Source of the DNA: Parachryseolinea silvisoli
GTDB taxonomy: Bacteria; Bacteroidota; Bacteroidia; Cytophagales; Cyclobacteriaceae
Reading direction: 5' to 3'
Length of the DNA stretch: 64,000 bases
Assembly (NCBI RefSeq): GCF_021190955.1
Contig: NZ_JAIOAO010000002.1
Span: 1,054,001-1,118,000, forward strand
The stretch's first letter is position 1. Every line of letters begins with the position of its first letter. The notes under the pieces were generated by a model. The model saw only the letters and a program-made list of their open reading frames with translations, ran no database searches and was not told the DNA's origin. Both the position numbers and the translations under genes were made by a program. This document shows, one piece after another, positions 50,610-58,160 of the stretch.

Positions 50610-50634
50610 AGGCCACCAAAAGTGGCCTTTTTTT
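50610..50634 (+). terminator. Rho-independent terminator
   Basis: AGGCCAC (50610-50616) and GTGGCCT (50622-50628) form a 7-bp stem with a 5-base loop, followed by a run of T. It ends the aminotransferase transcript and lies in front of the convergent receiver gene. Confidence 0.85.
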
Positions 50635-51034
50635 ACTTCCGCACCAGCTGCAGGAAATTATCCATCATTTTCAGGTATCCCTCTTCCGTTATAGGCTTCA
50701 CCGCGACCATCCCTGCACCCAGCTTTTTGCACTCGATGATCAGGTTGCTGTCGGCATAGGTGGAATAAATCACCGCCACGATGTTGGCAAACCGCTCGTT
50801 TGCTTTTAAAAAGGCCAGCGTTTGCCGTCCGTTCATCATCGGCATGTTCTGGTCAAGTATGATGAGGTCGGGCAGTGCCTCGTCGGCACCGAGGTTTTGC
50901 AGATACTCCACCAGCTCCACACCGTTTGCCATGGCGGGCAGCAGTTTCAGGTGTTTGCGGGAGGAGAAAAAAGAATAGAACATATCCCGATCGTCGGGAT
51001 CGTCCTCCACCAATACTACACGCGTGATGGTCAT
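50633..51034 (-). CDS. Stand-alone receiver (REC) protein
   Basis: A 133-residue receiver with no output domain. Acidic pocket VEDDPDD, phospho-acceptor Asp in IILDQNMPMMNG, Thr/Ser in YSTYAD and Lys in AVKPIT. It resembles Rcp1-type receivers that pass phosphate in phytochrome or KaiC-associated systems. The start overlaps the kinase stop by 4 bases, so it is translationally coupled as the last gene of the Kai operon. Confidence 0.9.
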   Translation of the reverse strand: MTITRVVLVEDDPDDRDMFYSFFSSRKHLKLLPAMANGVELVEYLQNLGADEALPDLIILDQNMPMMNGRQTLAFLKANERFANIVAVIYSTYADSNLIIECKKLGAGMVAVKPITEEGYLKMMDNFLQLVRK

Positions 51035-52335
51035 CTCAGGTTGGTCTGCTTCAGCGGTAAAATAATACTAAACTCCGATCCTTTGCCTGGTGCACTTTTG
51101 GCAATGATCAGTCCGTGGTGTTTGTCGATGATCTTTTTGGCAATGGCCAGTCCGATGCCCGACCCTTCAAAGGTAGATTTATGGTGCAGCTTTTCAAACA
51201 GGCTGAAAATGGCATACGCAAATTTTTCATCGAAGCCGATGCCATTGTCGCGTATGCTGATGTGACAATATTCCTCTTCGTTCAGTAAGGCAACGCCCAG
51301 CTCTACGGCCTTCACAGGCTTGGCGGTTACAGAAATATAGGGTTTGCTGCCGGGGGTAGAAAATTTGAGCGCATTGCTCAGCAGGTTATAAAACACTTGC
51401 CGAAGTTGACCCCGGTTTCCTTCTACAACGGGCAGCTCGCCCACATCGATGACAGCATGCTGTTCAACGATCTTCAGGTCAAAATCTTCCAGGATTTCAT
51501 CTACCAGCCGCTGTAAGTTTACTACTCCGGGCTGTGCGTCATTCGCCGACAGCCGGGAATAGGTGAGGATGTCGACGATAAGCGTCTTCATTCGGTTTGA
51601 GGCCGAAATGATTTTATCGATATACTGTTTGGAGGAATCAGTCAGCGCGTGGTAGCTGCGCTCCATTAGAAAATTGGAGAATACCTGGATCTTCCGCAGC
51701 GGTTCCTGCAGGTCGTGCGAAGCGACCGAGGCGAATTGCTGCAGGTCGTGATTGCTGCTCAGTAAGGCATTGTTCAGCGCTTCCAGCTGCTCATTTTTAT
51801 GTTTCAGCTCTTCCTCCGTTTTTTTCTGTTGCGTCAGGTCGGTGATGATCATGCTCAGCGTTTTGTCGCCATCAAAATCCAGCACCTTCAACGACAGCTG
51901 TACCGGCAGCGACTCCATGTCGCCTAACAAAACCTCTTCGCGTTTGGCAGAGTCCTGCCAGGCCGCCGATAGTACCTGCTCAAATAGTGGGCGGTCGGCC
52001 GCAGCAACAAATTGTATAAAGGGGCAGCCTAGCACCTTTGACAACGGTTGCCGTACCATGGCGGCAAACTGCGCATTACTAAACAGAATGATGCCGGCGG
52101 CGTTCAACGTCACCGCGCCTTCTGTCATTTCCTCGACAAAGATCCGGTAGGTGTGATCTGCCGACCGCAGTGTATACAGCGCATGTCCATCGTCGCCCTT
52201 CACTACCAGTGCATCGATCTGGCCGGTGCGGATCGCGTCGAGCGTATCGTTGGCTTCTTCCAGTTGCGTCTTCAGTGCATCGATTTCGGCCTGCAGTGTA
52301 TGGATGGAGGATTGTGGTTCCATGACGTTACCCAT
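51031..52335 (-). CDS. PAS sensor histidine kinase of the Kai operon
   Basis: A 434-residue soluble kinase: N-terminal coiled coil, PAS domain (about residues 65-185), HisKA with the phospho-His in ASHDLQEPLRKI (about 222), and HATPase with RDNGIGFDEK and GSGIGLAIAKKIID. It has no membrane segment and no KaiB-like N-terminal domain such as SasA has. The start overlaps the upstream kaiB by 8 bases (an internal ATG at 52323 would not overlap). Operon position suggests it links the KaiC state to the receiver (inference). Confidence 0.88.
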   Translation of the reverse strand: MGNVMEPQSSIHTLQAEIDALKTQLEEANDTLDAIRTGQIDALVVKGDDGHALYTLRSADHTYRIFVEEMTEGAVTLNAAGIILFSNAQFAAMVRQPLSKVLGCPFIQFVAAADRPLFEQVLSAAWQDSAKREEVLLGDMESLPVQLSLKVLDFDGDKTLSMIITDLTQQKKTEEELKHKNEQLEALNNALLSSNHDLQQFASVASHDLQEPLRKIQVFSNFLMERSYHALTDSSKQYIDKIISASNRMKTLIVDILTYSRLSANDAQPGVVNLQRLVDEILEDFDLKIVEQHAVIDVGELPVVEGNRGQLRQVFYNLLSNALKFSTPGSKPYISVTAKPVKAVELGVALLNEEEYCHISIRDNGIGFDEKFAYAIFSLFEKLHHKSTFEGSGIGLAIAKKIIDKHHGLIIAKSAPGKGSEFSIILPLKQTNLR

Positions 52336-52621
52336 TTATGCCTAAGCCGTTTAGAACTTTGCGAAGGTCAGACATGTCTCCGATGAGCCTTCGTGCCGGT
52401 AGGGGACTGTCTTTGATCAGCATCGGTAGCGCGATGATCTGTTGCTGTTCCGCTACGGCGGCATCCTGGCGCACGTCGATGATCGTGAGGTGATAGCGAC
52501 CCGCGAGGTGGGTTTCCAGTATATGCTGTAGATTATCGATGGCTCGCAGGGAATTGGGAGACGCGCCCGAAACATATAATTTCAGGACGTATTCGTGGGC
52601 AGAATGTGCAGGTGCTCCCAT
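52328..52621 (-). CDS. KaiB-like protein, divergent copy
   Basis: A 97-residue thioredoxin-like KaiB family protein. LKLYVSGASPNSLRAIDNL, IIALPMLIKDSPLPARRLIG and GDMSDLRKVLNGLGI match KaiB, but key positions differ from the canonical copy, so it may have changed partner. It lies 22 bp downstream of the first kaiB and overlaps the kinase gene. Confidence 0.88.
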   Translation of the reverse strand: MGAPAHSAHEYVLKLYVSGASPNSLRAIDNLQHILETHLAGRYHLTIIDVRQDAAVAEQQQIIALPMLIKDSPLPARRLIGDMSDLRKVLNGLGING

Positions 52622-52643
52622 AGCGCGTTGGTACGTTAACGTA

Positions 52644-52937
52644 TTACTGGCGGGCTGGACGAATGTCGAGGCCTACCAGTACCTTCTCTTCGTTGGAAAG
52701 GTCGCCGATGATCTTGCGTACGGGTTCCGGCACTTTTTTTACAAGCGTGGGGATGGCCAGGATCTGATCGCCTTCGGCCAGCTGGGGGTTCACCAGCAGA
52801 TCGATCACTTCGATCTCATAAATACCTTTCAGATGCTCTTCACAATATCGCTTGAGATTGTTCAGGGCGGTAACAGATCGTGGTGTATTGCCGGCAATGT
52901 ATAGCCGCAGCTCGTATTTTTTACTTGCTTTTGCCAT
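52644..52937 (-). CDS. kaiB: KaiB circadian-clock-type protein, canonical copy
   Basis: A 97-residue Kai[53 protein letters not shown] and VGLD follow cyanobacterial KaiB closely, including the C-terminal GDLS...KVL.GLD region where fold-switching occurs. In the cyanobacterial clock KaiB binds the KaiC CI ring. An upstream ATG at 52967 would add 10 residues. With 52937 the gene overlaps kaiC by 17 bases. Confidence 0.92.
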
Positions 52938-54678
52938 TGCCTTTTCCGCTTTTTGATGCGTTTTCATTTAAGTACCGCTTTTTGACCAATTCCATCCTGT
53001 TCTTTTCCAGGATCTCCTGCCGCAGCTGCTCTTCCTGTTGGGTACGGTATAGCTCATCTTTCAACGACTCGAATTCCTCCTGAAGGCTGGCGATCTTGGC
53101 TTCGAGCACGGTCTTCTTGCGCTGAATCTCGCGGTCGCGGCGAGTGTGCCCATGTGATTTCAATGCCTGGCCTGTTACTTCTTCCAACTGCTGCGCTTCG
53201 CGCGCCGAGCCGATGAGTATGCCATTAGGCCCCAGGTAGACATCCACCAGCTCCAGCCCTTTACGGGTAATGATGAACTCACGCACCTGGTTGGAGTGTT
53301 TCATGCCCCGGGACTTCATGATGTATAGGCCGCGGTTGCGCTCGCCGTTCGACTCGAGATCCCGCACGGTAATCCAACTATCTACTAGCGATGACACGCC
53401 TTCATCCGTTTGCTCTGTTACAGAACTGTTTAAGGTCAGCGCTGTAAACAGCACCGTTATCTGCTTCCTCTGCAGAAAGTCAATAAGCCGTATCAGCATC
53501 GCCTTGACCTCGCTGACCGTTCCGATCGTGACCAGGTTGGTAATCGGGTCGAGTATGATGACGCGGGGATTAAACTGTTGGATCTTTTTGTGGATCTCTA
53601 CCAGGTGCATTTCCAGGCCGTGCACGGTAGGCCGTGAAGAATGGAACTGTAGCAGGCCGTTTTCGACGTGCGCCTCGAGGTTCATGCCAATGGACCGCAT
53701 GTTGCGCACGATTTGCTGGGGAGATTCCTCAAAGGCAAAGAACAGGCACCGCTCTTTGCGCAGGCATGCCGCGTTGGCGAAAGACGCCGCAATGCTGGTT
53801 TTGCCGGTGCCGGCCGTTCCCGAAATCAGGATACTGGACCCGCGGAAAAATCCCCTGCCCTCGTCCAGCATCTGGTCGAGCGATGGTATACCCGACGCGA
53901 TTTTATCCCGGGATACAGGATATTTCAGCTCCAGCGAAGTGATCGGCAATACTGAAATGCCATCTTCATCAATCAAGAAAGGATATTCATTTGTGCCGTG
54001 CACCGTGCCCCGGTATTTCACCACCCGTAGCAGGCGGGTTGACACCTGGTTCCGCACGCGATGCTCCAACAAGATCACACAGTCCGATACGTACTCTTCC
54101 AACCCCTGCCGTGTCAGGGTATTGATGCCCCGTTCGCCGGTAATGATCGTGGTAACACCTTTGTCTTTTAGCCACTGGAACAACCGTCGTATTTCCGAGC
54201 GCAGGATGCCGTCGTTTGACAAACCACCGAATAAGTTCTCGATCGTATCCAGCACAACGCGCTTTGCACCGATGCTCGTGATGGCATGTTCCAGGCGGAT
54301 AAACAGGCCCGAAAGATCATACTCGCCGGTTTCTTCGATCTCGGTCTTATCGACGTGTACATAATCGATCTTGATCTTTTTATCCCGCTGCAGCTTGCTG
54401 AGATCGAACCCGAGCGAGGCCACGTTTGTAGCAAGCTCATCGCTCTTCTCCTCAAACGCAACGATCACGCCGGGTTCTTTGAACTTCAATGCGCCGTTCA
54501 CGATGAATTCGATCCCCAATAAGGTTTTGCCAGAGCCGGGACCCCCACAAATAAGTGTCGGTCGTCCCTGGGGCAAGCCCCCATGGGTAATCTCGTCAAG
54601 GCCAGTGATGCCAGTGGGGGATTTTTTTAATTGTTTGTCCGTCAAAACGGGTTGTAGACTCCTTTTGCTTTTTGCCAT
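52921..54678 (-). CDS. kaiC: KaiC-like double-ATPase
   Basis: A 585-residue KaiC with two RecA-type domains. CI: Walker A GGPGSGKT (residues 45-52), catalytic EE in [11 protein letters not shown]: Walker [11 protein letters not shown] (about 290), EE in AFEESPQQ, R-finger region [10 protein letters not shown]. The CII phosphorylation pair that is Ser-Thr in Synechococcus is Ser-Ser here (about residues 426-428, in [10 protein letters not shown]). A C-terminal coiled coil (last 85 or so residues) replaces the KaiA-binding tail, in line with the absence of kaiA. The frame runs to 54714, but ATG 54678 begins [11 protein letters not shown]. Confidence 0.93.
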
Positions 54679-54889
54679 GCGCAATAAATTGAAACGACAA
54701 TAACGGATCAGCAAAATATAAACGAGACAAGCTGATGCGTACCGCGGAAGGAAGATTTCTGATAGAATGCTAAAAGTAGTGAAACTCCCGAAAATAACTA
54801 GGGCTAATCAGCGAACGGGAAAATTATAGTAATTAAAGACACTTTTGCAAACGTCCCTCGGGCAGTCGGTACGGGTTTATCCGGAACTG

Positions 54890-56243: not shown

Positions 56244-57362
56244 ATGAATTTGCCGGGCTTGAAGTCATTAGAAGAAATACCCCGTATCTGGAAAAGAGCC
56301 TACCTGGTGCTTTGCTTCTGGTTTGCCGCCAATTACGGCGTGGGCACCTTTATGAAGTGGAAGCTTGAAAACCAGCCGACCTATATCTTCTGGAATGCCC
56401 TGCAGTTGTTTGAGGCGCTCTGTATTTTTATCATCATCATCTTTTTCTATACCAACTGGCTGTTTCGTTTTAATATCTATGTGCAAATAGCCGGTCACGC
56501 AGTGGGAGCCATGTTCCACTTCCTGGCAATGGGTACCCTGTCTTATTACCTGGAAACCTATGTTGAGGGCTATACTGGCTGGGACTACTGGCGCGAGCAC
56601 ATCATCGGGCTGCTGAAATGGGAGGGGCTCCACTTCCACGACCAGTATATCATTACCATTGGCGTGTACTACGTCATTCGCTATTTCCAGGGCGTGCAGC
56701 ACCAGGAGCAAGAGAAAAGCGAACTAGCCCTCAAGAACCGGGAAATGCAGATTTCACTGCTCAAATCGCAGATCAACCCGCACTTTCTGTTTAATACCCT
56801 TAACTCCATTAATACCCTGATCGGGTCCAGTAAAGAGCAGGCCCGCAAGGTGATCACCCAACTGTCCGATATCTTCCGTTATGCGCTCGACTCGCATGGC
56901 GACCAGATGGTCAAGCTCATACACGAGCTGGACTTTATCGACAACTATATTCGCATTCAGCAGGTACGTTTTGGCGACCGTCTGAAGTTCGTCAAGCAGG
57001 TCGATTTCTCATGCCTGAGTGTGGAAATCCCGCCGATGATCCTTCAGCCGCTGGTGGAGAACTCGGTAAAATATGGTATCGCCCCCAAGGATGATGGCGG
57101 TACGATTATTTTAACCGTGAAGCGTTTTAACAATATGATATTTTTCGAGGTCAAAGATGACGGTCTTGGCTCTAATGCCAAGAAGGTAATGGACGGCAGC
57201 TCCAGTGGGGTAGGTATGAAGAACACGGACGAGCGCCTGAAAAGTATCTTTGGTCCCGGTTCGGGCTTGCGGATACACTCCAATGAATGGGGGTATTCTG
57301 TCAGCTTCTTCATACCGTTTGAGGAGCCCGCCGTCGCGGAGCTCAATAGTAAAGCCGTGTAG
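56244..57362 (+). CDS. LytS-type sensor histidine kinase
   Basis: A 372-residue kinase with about four membrane helices (residues 15-150), a coiled coil and a His_kinase domain with the phospho-His in INPHFLFNTLNSINT. The ATPase region has PLVENSVKYGI and GSSSGVGMKNTDERLKSIFG. It is followed by a LytTR regulator 54 bp downstream, its partner. The second such pair in the window. Confidence 0.9.
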   Translation: MNLPGLKSLEEIPRIWKRAYLVLCFWFAANYGVGTFMKWKLENQPTYIFWNALQLFEALCIFIIIIFFYTNWLFRFNIYVQIAGHAVGAMFHFLAMGTLSYYLETYVEGYTGWDYWREHIIGLLKWEGLHFHDQYIITIGVYYVIRYFQGVQHQEQEKSELALKNREMQISLLKSQINPHFLFNTLNSINTLIGSSKEQARKVITQLSDIFRYALDSHGDQMVKLIHELDFIDNYIRIQQVRFGDRLKFVKQVDFSCLSVEIPPMILQPLVENSVKYGIAPKDDGGTIILTVKRFNNMIFFEVKDDGLGSNAKKVMDGSSSGVGMKNTDERLKSIFGPGSGLRIHSNEWGYSVSFFIPFEEPAVAELNSKAV

Positions 57363-57416
57363 ACCCCTCTATGAAAACAGAATATATCAACCTCACCATA
57401 ACTAAATTGTAGTTTC

Positions 57417-58160
57417 ATGAATATAACCTGTGTTATCGTAGACGATGAAAAACTGGCCCGTGACCTGCTTCAGGAATATATACAGCAGATCCCGAACATC
57501 CAGATCATTGGTGAAGCTTCCAAAGGGAAGGAAGCCGTAGAGTTGATCGACAAAGAAAAACCCGACCTGGTGTTTCTCGACGTACAGATGCCTGGCATGA
57601 CCGGCTTTGATGTGCTGGACGAGATCACCCACGACCCCTATGTTATATTTTGCACGGCCTACGACCAGTATGCCATCAAGGCCTTTGAGAAAAACGCCGT
57701 AGATTATATCCTCAAGCCACTGGACCAGGAACGGTTCAAACAGGGTGTTGAGCGCGCCATTGCCCGCATGAAGATGGAGCAAAATAATGTGGGCGAGCTG
57801 CTGCGCAACATGAAGACAGAAAACAAGACTTCGTACGACTCACACATCTTCGTACAAAAGTCTGAAAAGCTGCTCAACCTGCCGGTAGATGAAATTGTAT
57901 ACCTCGAAGCCTCCGGCGATTATACCATCCTCACGACCAAAAACGATCAATTCGTAAGCTCGTCGGGTATTGGTAAACTGGAAGAAATTCTGAACCCGGA
58001 AATTTTTATCCGTGTGCACCGCAGTACGATCATCAACATCAACAGCCTGAAAGAAATCGAAAAGCATTTCAACGGCGGCATGGTGGTAAAGATGCAGAAC
58101 GGCAAAAGCTTCCCGGTAAGCCGCACGTATGCGAAGCTGATCCGGAAAAAGGTTGTTTAA
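57417..58160 (+). CDS. LytTR family response regulator
   Basis: A 247-residue regulator: receiver with VDDEKLAR, Asp in FLDVQMPGMTG and Lys in ILKPLDQE, followed by a LytTR DNA-binding domain (about residues 140-245, with FIRVHRSTIININSLKEIEK). Downstream of, and presumably phosphorylated by, the LytS-type kinase. A strong terminator follows. Confidence 0.92.
   Translation: MNITCVIVDDEKLARDLLQEYIQQIPNIQIIGEASKGKEAVELIDKEKPDLVFLDVQMPGMTGFDVLDEITHDPYVIFCTAYDQYAIKAFEKNAVDYILKPLDQERFKQGVERAIARMKMEQNNVGELLRNMKTENKTSYDSHIFVQKSEKLLNLPVDEIVYLEASGDYTILTTKNDQFVSSSGIGKLEEILNPEIFIRVHRSTIININSLKEIEKHFNGGMVVKMQNGKSFPVSRTYAKLIRKKVV

Follow-up and report, generated by a model that had tools for sequence, protein, structure and literature searches.

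A KaiA-less kaiC-kaiB-kaiB operon of Parachryseolinea silvisoli with a candidate Kai-coupling module in its partner kinase and two classes of KaiB

The stretch of DNA analysed here, called the window, comprises 64,000 nucleotides of Parachryseolinea silvisoli (Bacteroidota; Cytophagales; Cyclobacteriaceae; contig NZ_JAIOAO010000002.1, positions 1,054,001 to 1,118,000) and carries on its minus strand, at 50633-54678, the genes for a KaiC, two KaiBs, a histidine kinase and a receiver-only response regulator, in that order. The operon probably encodes, at a rough probability of 0.6, a KaiA-independent KaiBC system of the type known from Rhodobacter (Cereibacter) sphaeroides, either a timer or a sensor of the energy state, together with a dedicated signalling partner. 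Operons of the kaiC-kaiB-kinase type are already known; added here are a candidate coupler, a short module at the N-terminus of the partner protein (the N-module), and a split of the KaiBs into two classes. Observed directly are the conserved gene order, the association of the N-module with kaiB, the exchange of outputs behind the module and the two KaiB classes.

The operon and its gene calls

52921..54678, minus strand: kaiC, 585 amino acids (aa); CI and CII ATPase domains, Ser429-Ser430 phosphosite and C-terminal tail
52644..52937, minus strand: kaiB1 ('first' class), 97 aa; KaiB by Pfam
52328..52621, minus strand: kaiB2 ('second' class), 97 aa; KaiB by Pfam; AlphaFold2 (AF2) model with fold-switched (thioredoxin-like) topology
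51031..52335, minus strand: histidine kinase, 434 aa; N-module, PAS, HisKA (His207) and HATPase_c
52129..52314, minus strand: N-module of the kinase; coiled-coil helix, AIRTGQIDALVV and beta-hairpin (alignment A2); Kai-linked, no Pfam or NCBIfam family found
50633..51034, minus strand: receiver-only response regulator, 133 aa; Asp61 and Lys113; accessory gene
50610..50628, minus strand: terminator-like hairpin directly 3' of the receiver stop; consensus match only

The layout is derived from open reading frame (ORF) calls and Pfam. Overlaps of 17, 8 and 4 bases join kaiC to kaiB1, kaiB2 to the kinase gene and the kinase gene to the receiver gene, and a 22-base gap separates the two kaiB genes, so that the five-gene overlapping operon described in an earlier note on this DNA is reproduced in both its coordinates and its overlaps. 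The ATG at 54678 taken as the kaiC start agrees with relatives, an alternative TTG lying upstream at 54714, and the overlap of kaiC with kaiB1 grows to 47 bases if kaiB1 starts at the ATG at 52967. Pfam assigns ATPase/KaiC to two stretches of KaiC (E 4.3e-110), KaiB to both small proteins (1.3e-27 and 6.7e-20), HisKA and HATPase_c to the kinase, whose PAS domain scores under its cut-off, and Response_reg to the receiver. The motifs of KaiC are intact (Walker A at 45 and 287, EE pairs at 76-77 and 317-318, Ser-Ser at 429-430), as the same note had claimed for both Walker A motifs and both EE pairs, and the catalytic residues His207 of the kinase and Asp61 and Lys113 of the receiver are present. 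In the window's genome, which is 98.3% complete, the only KaiB matches are kaiB1 and kaiB2, and KaiA gives no match in a search that detects the S. elongatus control, which upholds the description of a KaiBC unit without KaiA.

The family E-values, together with the recurrence of this order in many other genomes, rule out a chance origin of the operon. A promoter-like match lies 5' of kaiC, but promoter- and terminator-like matches prove nothing here, since the scanned stretch holds 9 and 11 of them and shuffled sequences hold 5.4 and 6.5.

Distribution of the cluster and linkage of the N-module

Neighbourhoods were compared across the order, in a sample of 291 genomes of which 62 contain KaiB (60 above the family cut-off), and across the phylum, in a sample of 395 genomes of which 39 contain it (37 above cut-off). 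Two neighbouring KaiB matches are present in 55 of the 62 KaiB-positive genomes of the order, one pair (G082) being broken. The loci of the order read kaiC-kaiB-kaiB-kinase almost throughout, some KaiBs hidden by overlapping ORFs having been recovered on recheck. The best 80 named KaiC loci come mainly from Bacteroidota and also from Methanoperedens archaea, Planctomycetota, Nitrospira, Geomonas and Proteobacteria. Exactly two KaiBs are found in 76 of them, three in L152, four KaiB-like matches in L162 and one each in L144 and L153. Named and order loci are partly from the same genomes, as identical KaiCs indicate (L037/L093, L048/L114 and L065/L142). The earlier note mentioned related clusters in other Cytophagales, and the gene order does recur there and far beyond. 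One Chitinophagaceae-type kai cluster (L122) lies in a bin labelled as an actinomycete ('MAG: Williamsia sp. isolate E01'), and this record is probably mis-binned or misnamed.

The 80 named loci were selected by KaiC alignment, with the best 80 kept, and inform on architecture rather than co-occurrence; the fair test is therefore a search with the N-module alone. Within the named loci, the N-module ORF begins 8-127 nucleotides (nt) after a KaiB domain in 79 of 80, and the contig ends in the 80th (L115). Searched alone, the N-module is found in 56 of the 291 genomes of the order, every one of them KaiB-positive, with one copy each (two pieces in G082). At the order loci, a KaiB domain precedes the module ORF by 8-174 nt in 53 of 54 cases; in the 54th (G248), the KaiB, 27 nt away, is interrupted by a TAA stop. 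The remaining two of the 56 genomes are that of the window (20 nt from KaiB) and the broken G082 (45 nt).

The same search finds the module in 29 of the 395 genomes of the phylum sample (5 genomes common to the order sample), at 22-277 nt from KaiB in 28; the 29th match (G613, E 5.9e-4 over 32 positions; L187) looks unrelated. In the sample drawn from the phylum of genome G672, the module occurs in 8 of 229 genomes, seven times at 23-58 nt from KaiB and once (G802, partial, 33 positions) beside a 78-aa KaiB-like remnant that scores under the cut-off. Among 72,556 plasmid records, N-module and PAS occur together in 11, all within the 16 records that contain kaiC; three of the 11 were inspected individually. 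Nine of the 11 are from Cereibacter sphaeroides, including R. sphaeroides KD131, the source of the solved KaiBC. All 24 genomes behind named loci have the N-module, with one match in 20. The surplus matches comprise a further copy adjacent to KaiB where a contig ends (G685, L186), another piece of the same ORF (G672), a weak partial match (G675) and a weak match that looks unrelated (G683, L201). The number of candidates scored per genome was at most 21 (order), 15 (phylum) and 27 (G672 set), and weak N-module paralogues may therefore be missed. The kinase had been proposed as part of the Kai unit, and this agrees with the finding that its N-module occurs almost only beside kaiB. The pattern, read from sequence, suggests that the N-module may be the plug that turns the state of the timer into a cell response.

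The partner protein, its exchanged outputs and the receiver

Alignment A2 (65 columns, 63 model positions) describes the N-module as a coiled coil followed by an AIRxGxVDALVV hairpin, with PAS next. A model of kinase residues 1-205 (overall predicted local distance difference test score, pLDDT, 88.9) contains a helix at 8-36, a less confident hairpin at 42-47/50-55 (block means 63-79) and then PAS, and a Foldseek search with this model returns PAS proteins. Comparison of 16 family members with Pfam yields two weak coiled-coil matches (HALZ and TolA_bind_tri), and NCBIfam yields none. A PDB profile search with the N-module gives 7 weak matches, the best at E 0.0085. No description of the N-module or of two KaiB classes in Bacteroidota was found in the searched literature, which covers few subscription journals and is no proof of absence.

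The N-module is constant while the C-terminus behind it is swapped among unrelated outputs. After PAS, seven partner proteins scanned with Pfam carry HisKA (L033, L162), HisKA_2 (L157), HisKA_3 with a receiver (L169), GAF with HATPase (L164), a sigma-54 AAA+ domain with HTH_8 (L163) or PAS alone (L167), and annotations give HWE kinases as the partner in alphaproteobacterial plasmids.

Some of these proteins deserve separate mention. In L163 (3008-5359), one protein combines the N-module with an HTH_8-bearing sigma-54 activator and is a candidate for a Kai-linked direct transcription factor. Proteins of ~235 aa made up of N-module and PAS (L167, 6109-6816; L168, 8483-9190; L192) have no kinase domain as judged by length and profile, and by Pfam for L167; these short partners come after two KaiBs in Bacteroidales-type loci. 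No KaiB-kinase fusion exists among the ORFs of the collected loci. Two other fusion candidates were rejected: an ORF of G116 (L200) is not KaiB-like, and the apparent KaiC-KaiB fusion in L153 is a long open frame that merely overlaps kaiC.

In cyanobacteria, SasA has a KaiB-like (thioredoxin-fold) N-domain and RpaA is the DNA-binding response regulator that provides the output. The earlier note placed the window's kinase and receiver in these two roles and called the cluster a complete signalling unit. For the kinase, the idea of a Kai-tied partner survives and the likeness to the SasA sensory domain does not: Pfam detects no KaiB-like domain in it, and the model shows helix, hairpin and PAS. 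The receiver (133 aa) has no DNA-binding domain by Pfam, regulators elsewhere in the genome not having been searched, and is therefore no RpaA equivalent. Moreover, only 21 of 74 named loci (six of the 80 were excluded) have a receiver-only gene next to the cluster, 16 times downstream and 5 times upstream, and in its place L157 and L159 have a longer downstream regulator (239-240 aa). Within the window's own KaiC cluster, 10 of 11 fellow rows have a downstream receiver (L094, L097, L100, L102, L122, L126, L132, L135, L137, L203), and the 11th, L104, is among the six excluded loci. Because the cluster encodes no DNA-binding output, the description as a complete unit had to be dropped.

Two classes of KaiB

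The earlier note treated the second KaiB as a further copy, possibly competing with the first. Both proteins are full KaiB domains by Pfam, and their sequences place them in two distinct, position-conserved classes rather than as interchangeable copies. KaiB1 of the window groups with the R. sphaeroides KaiB in the KaiB tree and is identical to it at 50 of 81 residues, and KaiB2 is identical to KaiB1 at 39 of 91. The tree has 117 rows, few columns and an arbitrary root, and includes the window twice, giving 41 distinct pairs. All 42 sampled first KaiBs fall into one 63-row group (support 96/95), to which the single KaiBs of R. sphaeroides and other organisms also belong; none of the 42 sampled second KaiBs is in it. 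Since single KaiBs lie among them, the labels 'first' and 'second' need 5 and 6 changes on the tree by the tool's count.

Residues were counted over 129 distinct KaiB pairs and 150 distinct KaiCs, whose relatedness makes them non-independent. First-class KaiBs are hydrophobic at R. sphaeroides positions 68 (128/129) and 83 (127/129); second-class KaiBs are polar or charged at position 68 in 73 and at position 83 in 95 of 129, and at both positions in 63, versus a single first-class KaiB. In the R. sphaeroides KaiB, the mutations I68R, V83D and N84R raise the switched, KaiC-binding fold from 11% to 86% (PMC10808063), and three prolines have been linked to KaiB fold switching (PMC11551320). With P58, P65, P67, V68 and V83, KaiB1 of the window has the residues expected of a fold-switching KaiB. 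All three prolines are also retained in 108 of the 129 second-class KaiBs, including KaiB2 of the window, which has Ala68, Asn83 and Gly84, carries no charges at these positions and is less clear than the trend of its class.

Modelled with AF2 from 39 aligned second-class rows, KaiB2 of the window takes the fold-switched topology (pLDDT 82), although this is a single model without a KaiB1 control and default ColabFold yields the switched fold even for a known switcher (PMC10808063). The model best matches the Legionella KaiB 4kun and KaiC-bound KaiBs, and also the SasA N-domain 1t4y, and reaches a template modelling (TM) score of only 0.41 against the ground-state KaiB 1wwj. The KaiB2 class evolves faster and appears to be biased to the KaiC-binding fold.

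Three further observations concern KaiB. One genome of the Dyadobacter group carries a TAA stop within the KaiB next to its N-module kinase (G248:C14:572285-572665), a natural loss. In Arcticibacter (L144), the single KaiB is of the second class and the partner kinase appears as two ORFs (312 and 257 aa). KaiB pairs ~1.2-2.2 kb apart, found in genomes without an N-module match (G795, G771, G720, G875, G827, G847, G843), are another two-KaiB arrangement.

KaiC type and origin of the window's copy

The closest solved chains to the window's KaiC are those of R. sphaeroides KaiC (8dba, E 2.1e-184; 289 of 550 aligned residues identical, 52.5%), which leave 8zn5, the next in line (2.2e-109), and the cyanobacterial chains far behind. 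It has the two RecA-like domains, EE pairs and two adjacent serines of this type, and a tail with coiled-coil character at approximately residues 495-565 that aligns in part to that of 8dba. In R. sphaeroides KaiC, the C-terminal extension joins two hexamers (PMC10076222). By its tail and Ser-Ser site, the window's KaiC is assigned to the R. sphaeroides type. Among the 150 distinct KaiCs, the tail extends 90 aa or more beyond the VREF motif in 141, and the Ser-Ser pair is present in 142.

Departures from this type occur. The 475-aa KaiC of G265, from the same family as the window (L032, 2912-4339), is tail-less yet accompanied by two KaiBs and an N-module kinase; the 155 bases 3' of its kaiC open with an immediate stop, and no tail reading was seen by eye. 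In the Fibrella/Fibrivirga group (L098, L151, L056, L084), the KaiC phosphosite is Ala-Ser, not Ser-Ser, in clusters that are otherwise complete; L084 and L056 may represent the same genomes as L098 and L151.

In a quick tree, the window's KaiC nests in an 8-row group containing six Chitinophagaceae rows (Shimodaira-Hasegawa-like approximate likelihood-ratio test, SH-aLRT, 95), apart from the rows for Spirosoma and Dyadobacter, which belong to its own order. The surrounding 12-row group has a support of 90, below the starred level, and 10 of the 11 fellows have the same five-gene order. The highest identity of the window's KaiC to any row is 72%. Its own family includes one other matching genome among those searched, G265, whose KaiC groups elsewhere, and at least 20 members without a KaiB match. 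At 52.3%, the G+C content of the operon exceeds that of 105 of 120 segments of the same length, whose mean is 46.9%. The copy looks horizontally acquired from Chitinophagaceae, which fits these data without being proved by them. Near the operon, on the opposite strand (56244-58160, plus), lie a sensor kinase and a response regulator, which we take to be a LytS-like kinase and a LytTR-type regulator.

Proposed mechanism and alternative readings

For the window's system, we infer binding, phosphotransfer, timing and the direction of signalling; the steps of the timer are transferred from the R. sphaeroides proteins on the ground of homology. KaiC hexamers, possibly joined through their tails, would autophosphorylate at Ser429/Ser430 at high ATP and dephosphorylate as ADP rises. 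KaiB1 would switch fold, bind the post-hydrolysis CI ring and speed the reset. An ATP/ADP cycle of KaiC and fold-switch binding of KaiB, with acceleration of the reset, have been reported for the R. sphaeroides proteins (PMC10076222). The protein encoded after kaiB2 would then read the state of the Kai complex through the N-module ahead of PAS and pass the signal to whichever output domain follows; in the window this is a HisKA kinase, which would probably phosphorylate the neighbouring receiver. KaiB2 would most likely tune the timing of CI-ring occupancy, by competition or as a co-adaptor.

Several observations weigh against this reading. KaiB-positive genomes without the module are frequent in the G672 set (26 of 33) and present in the phylum sample (11 of 39), and those without it include loci with a tailed KaiC and KaiB (L198, L199). 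The receiver, given its patchy occurrence, is ruled out as a general core part. Docking of the N-module on the KaiC tail is weakened as a mechanism and need not occur, because the tail-less KaiCs of L032, L188 and L189 are each still accompanied by the module. Finally, the N-module could be an input route into KaiC and not an output route; the DNA-binding sigma-54 activator behind the module in L163 speaks for the output direction.

Among the alternatives, the best placed, though still improbable, is a stress-response switch in which KaiC integrates energy state with temperature or UV stress and no day length is measured. In Methylorubrum extorquens AM1, which has the order kaiC1-kaiB2-kaiB1-kaiR1, loss of kaiC1 makes cells more UV-sensitive (PMC8069551), whereas the R. 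sphaeroides proteins have been described as an hourglass timer in vitro (PMC10076222). Somewhat more doubtful is a scheme in which KaiB1 and KaiB2 both switch fold and compete for the same CI sites to produce a dose-dependent delay, the kinase contacting KaiC only. Both proteins of the window are full KaiB domains that keep the three prolines, as this scheme would have it; the separation of the classes, with the same gene order in distant phyla, fits a division of labour better than a dose effect.

A split SasA is unlikely but would account for a number of observations. Here KaiB2, in the thioredoxin-like fold, would be a detachable SasA sensory domain that sits on the CI ring until displaced by fold-switched KaiB1, and the N-module would relay the signal to the kinase. 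The predicted switched fold of the KaiB2 model and its likeness to 4kun, KaiC-bound KaiBs and the SasA N-domain point this way, as do the polar or charged residues that second-class KaiBs often have at the fold-flipping positions and the published KaiC-adjacent kinases with a KaiB-like N-terminal region (PMC3164672). With ORF starts taken as the first possible ones, 37 of 53 order loci show an overlap between the last KaiB ORF and that of the partner, and 13 more a gap of 0-25 nt, so that the two overlap or closely abut in 50 of 53, which speaks for the main reading as well. In partial correlations over 116 loci, N-module distances follow KaiB2 (0.38) more than KaiB1 (0.25) and PAS distances do not (0.25 versus 0.31); these values compare distances among linked genes and differ in size only, since the permutation p is 0.002 for all four. 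Against a split SasA stands the finding that the module does not require KaiB2: loci with a single KaiB and the module (Cereibacter, Falsirhodobacter, Rhizobium, Sinorhizobium, the f37 group and others) mostly have a first-class KaiB, and L144 presents the converse, a second-class KaiB only. The retained prolines, the uncharged residues at 68, 83 and 84 in the window's KaiB2, the lack of a control for its model and the lack of KaiB-kinase fusions among the collected ORFs also count against it.

A broader version, unlikely to a similar degree, would make the N-module a general KaiBC plug-in of bacteria and archaea that reads the Kai complex and is wired to several kinase classes or to a sigma-54 activator, joined in most of the sampled clusters by a fold-locked KaiB2 as a split SasA that KaiB1 displaces. 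Very unlikely is an ordinary PAS lead-in kept beside kaiB by shared operon descent alone, for although the module is short and its coiled coil is matched by chance in other places (L187, L201), it is preserved in proteins whose remaining domains have been exchanged for unrelated outputs, and away from kai genes the order, phylum, plasmid, named-genome and G672 searches return only weak partial matches.

Relation to known systems and significance

The R. sphaeroides KaiBC operon (KaiC 8dba, KaiBC 8fwj) shares with the window the KaiC tail, the Ser-Ser site and a kinase with the N-module directly after kaiB, and differs in having one KaiB, an HWE kinase and no adjacent receiver gene, and in being plasmid-borne in the strain read. 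M. extorquens AM1 likewise has kaiC, two kaiB genes and a regulator gene, and a KaiC1 with two serine phosphosites; its regulator is kaiR1, compared by gene order alone (PMC8069551). The five-gene order with a downstream receiver is found in Chitinophagaceae (Chitinophaga, Niastella, Segetibacter and Cnuella; L126, L137, L132, L135, L094, L097), known from sequence alone. The cyanobacterial KaiABC-SasA-RpaA system has the KaiC and KaiB families and a histidine kinase partner in common with the window, which in contrast has no KaiA, a kinase without a KaiB-like N-domain, a receiver without a DNA-binding domain and an additional class of KaiB. Ramlibacter-type kaiC-Nt_HK pairs also have a dedicated KaiC partner kinase defined by its N-terminal region, but this region is SasA/KaiB-like and kaiB is missing from the genome (PMC3164672).

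To our knowledge, it is not yet settled how KaiA-less KaiBC timers transmit their state, R. sphaeroides included, although the core mechanism of its system has been solved. Outside the cyanobacteria, the gene immediately downstream of a kaiC-kaiB cluster almost always encodes a histidine kinase or a GGDEF/EAL protein (PMC3164672), and a kaiC-B-PAS/HK operon has been named (PMC4794148). Bacteroidetes that encode only KaiB2/KaiC2-like proteins have been described, as has the kinase that shares an operon with kaiBC in R. sphaeroides (PMC5520375). By term count, 'SasA' and 'histidine kinase' are absent from the main text of PMC10076222.

The N-module is a concrete, purifiable candidate for the coupling part, present in the R. 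sphaeroides operon too, and is the most valuable lead from this analysis. The swapped C-termini are natural experiments, among which the sigma-54 activator would bypass a phosphorelay. The split between the KaiB classes predicts that the second class would favour the KaiC-bound fold.

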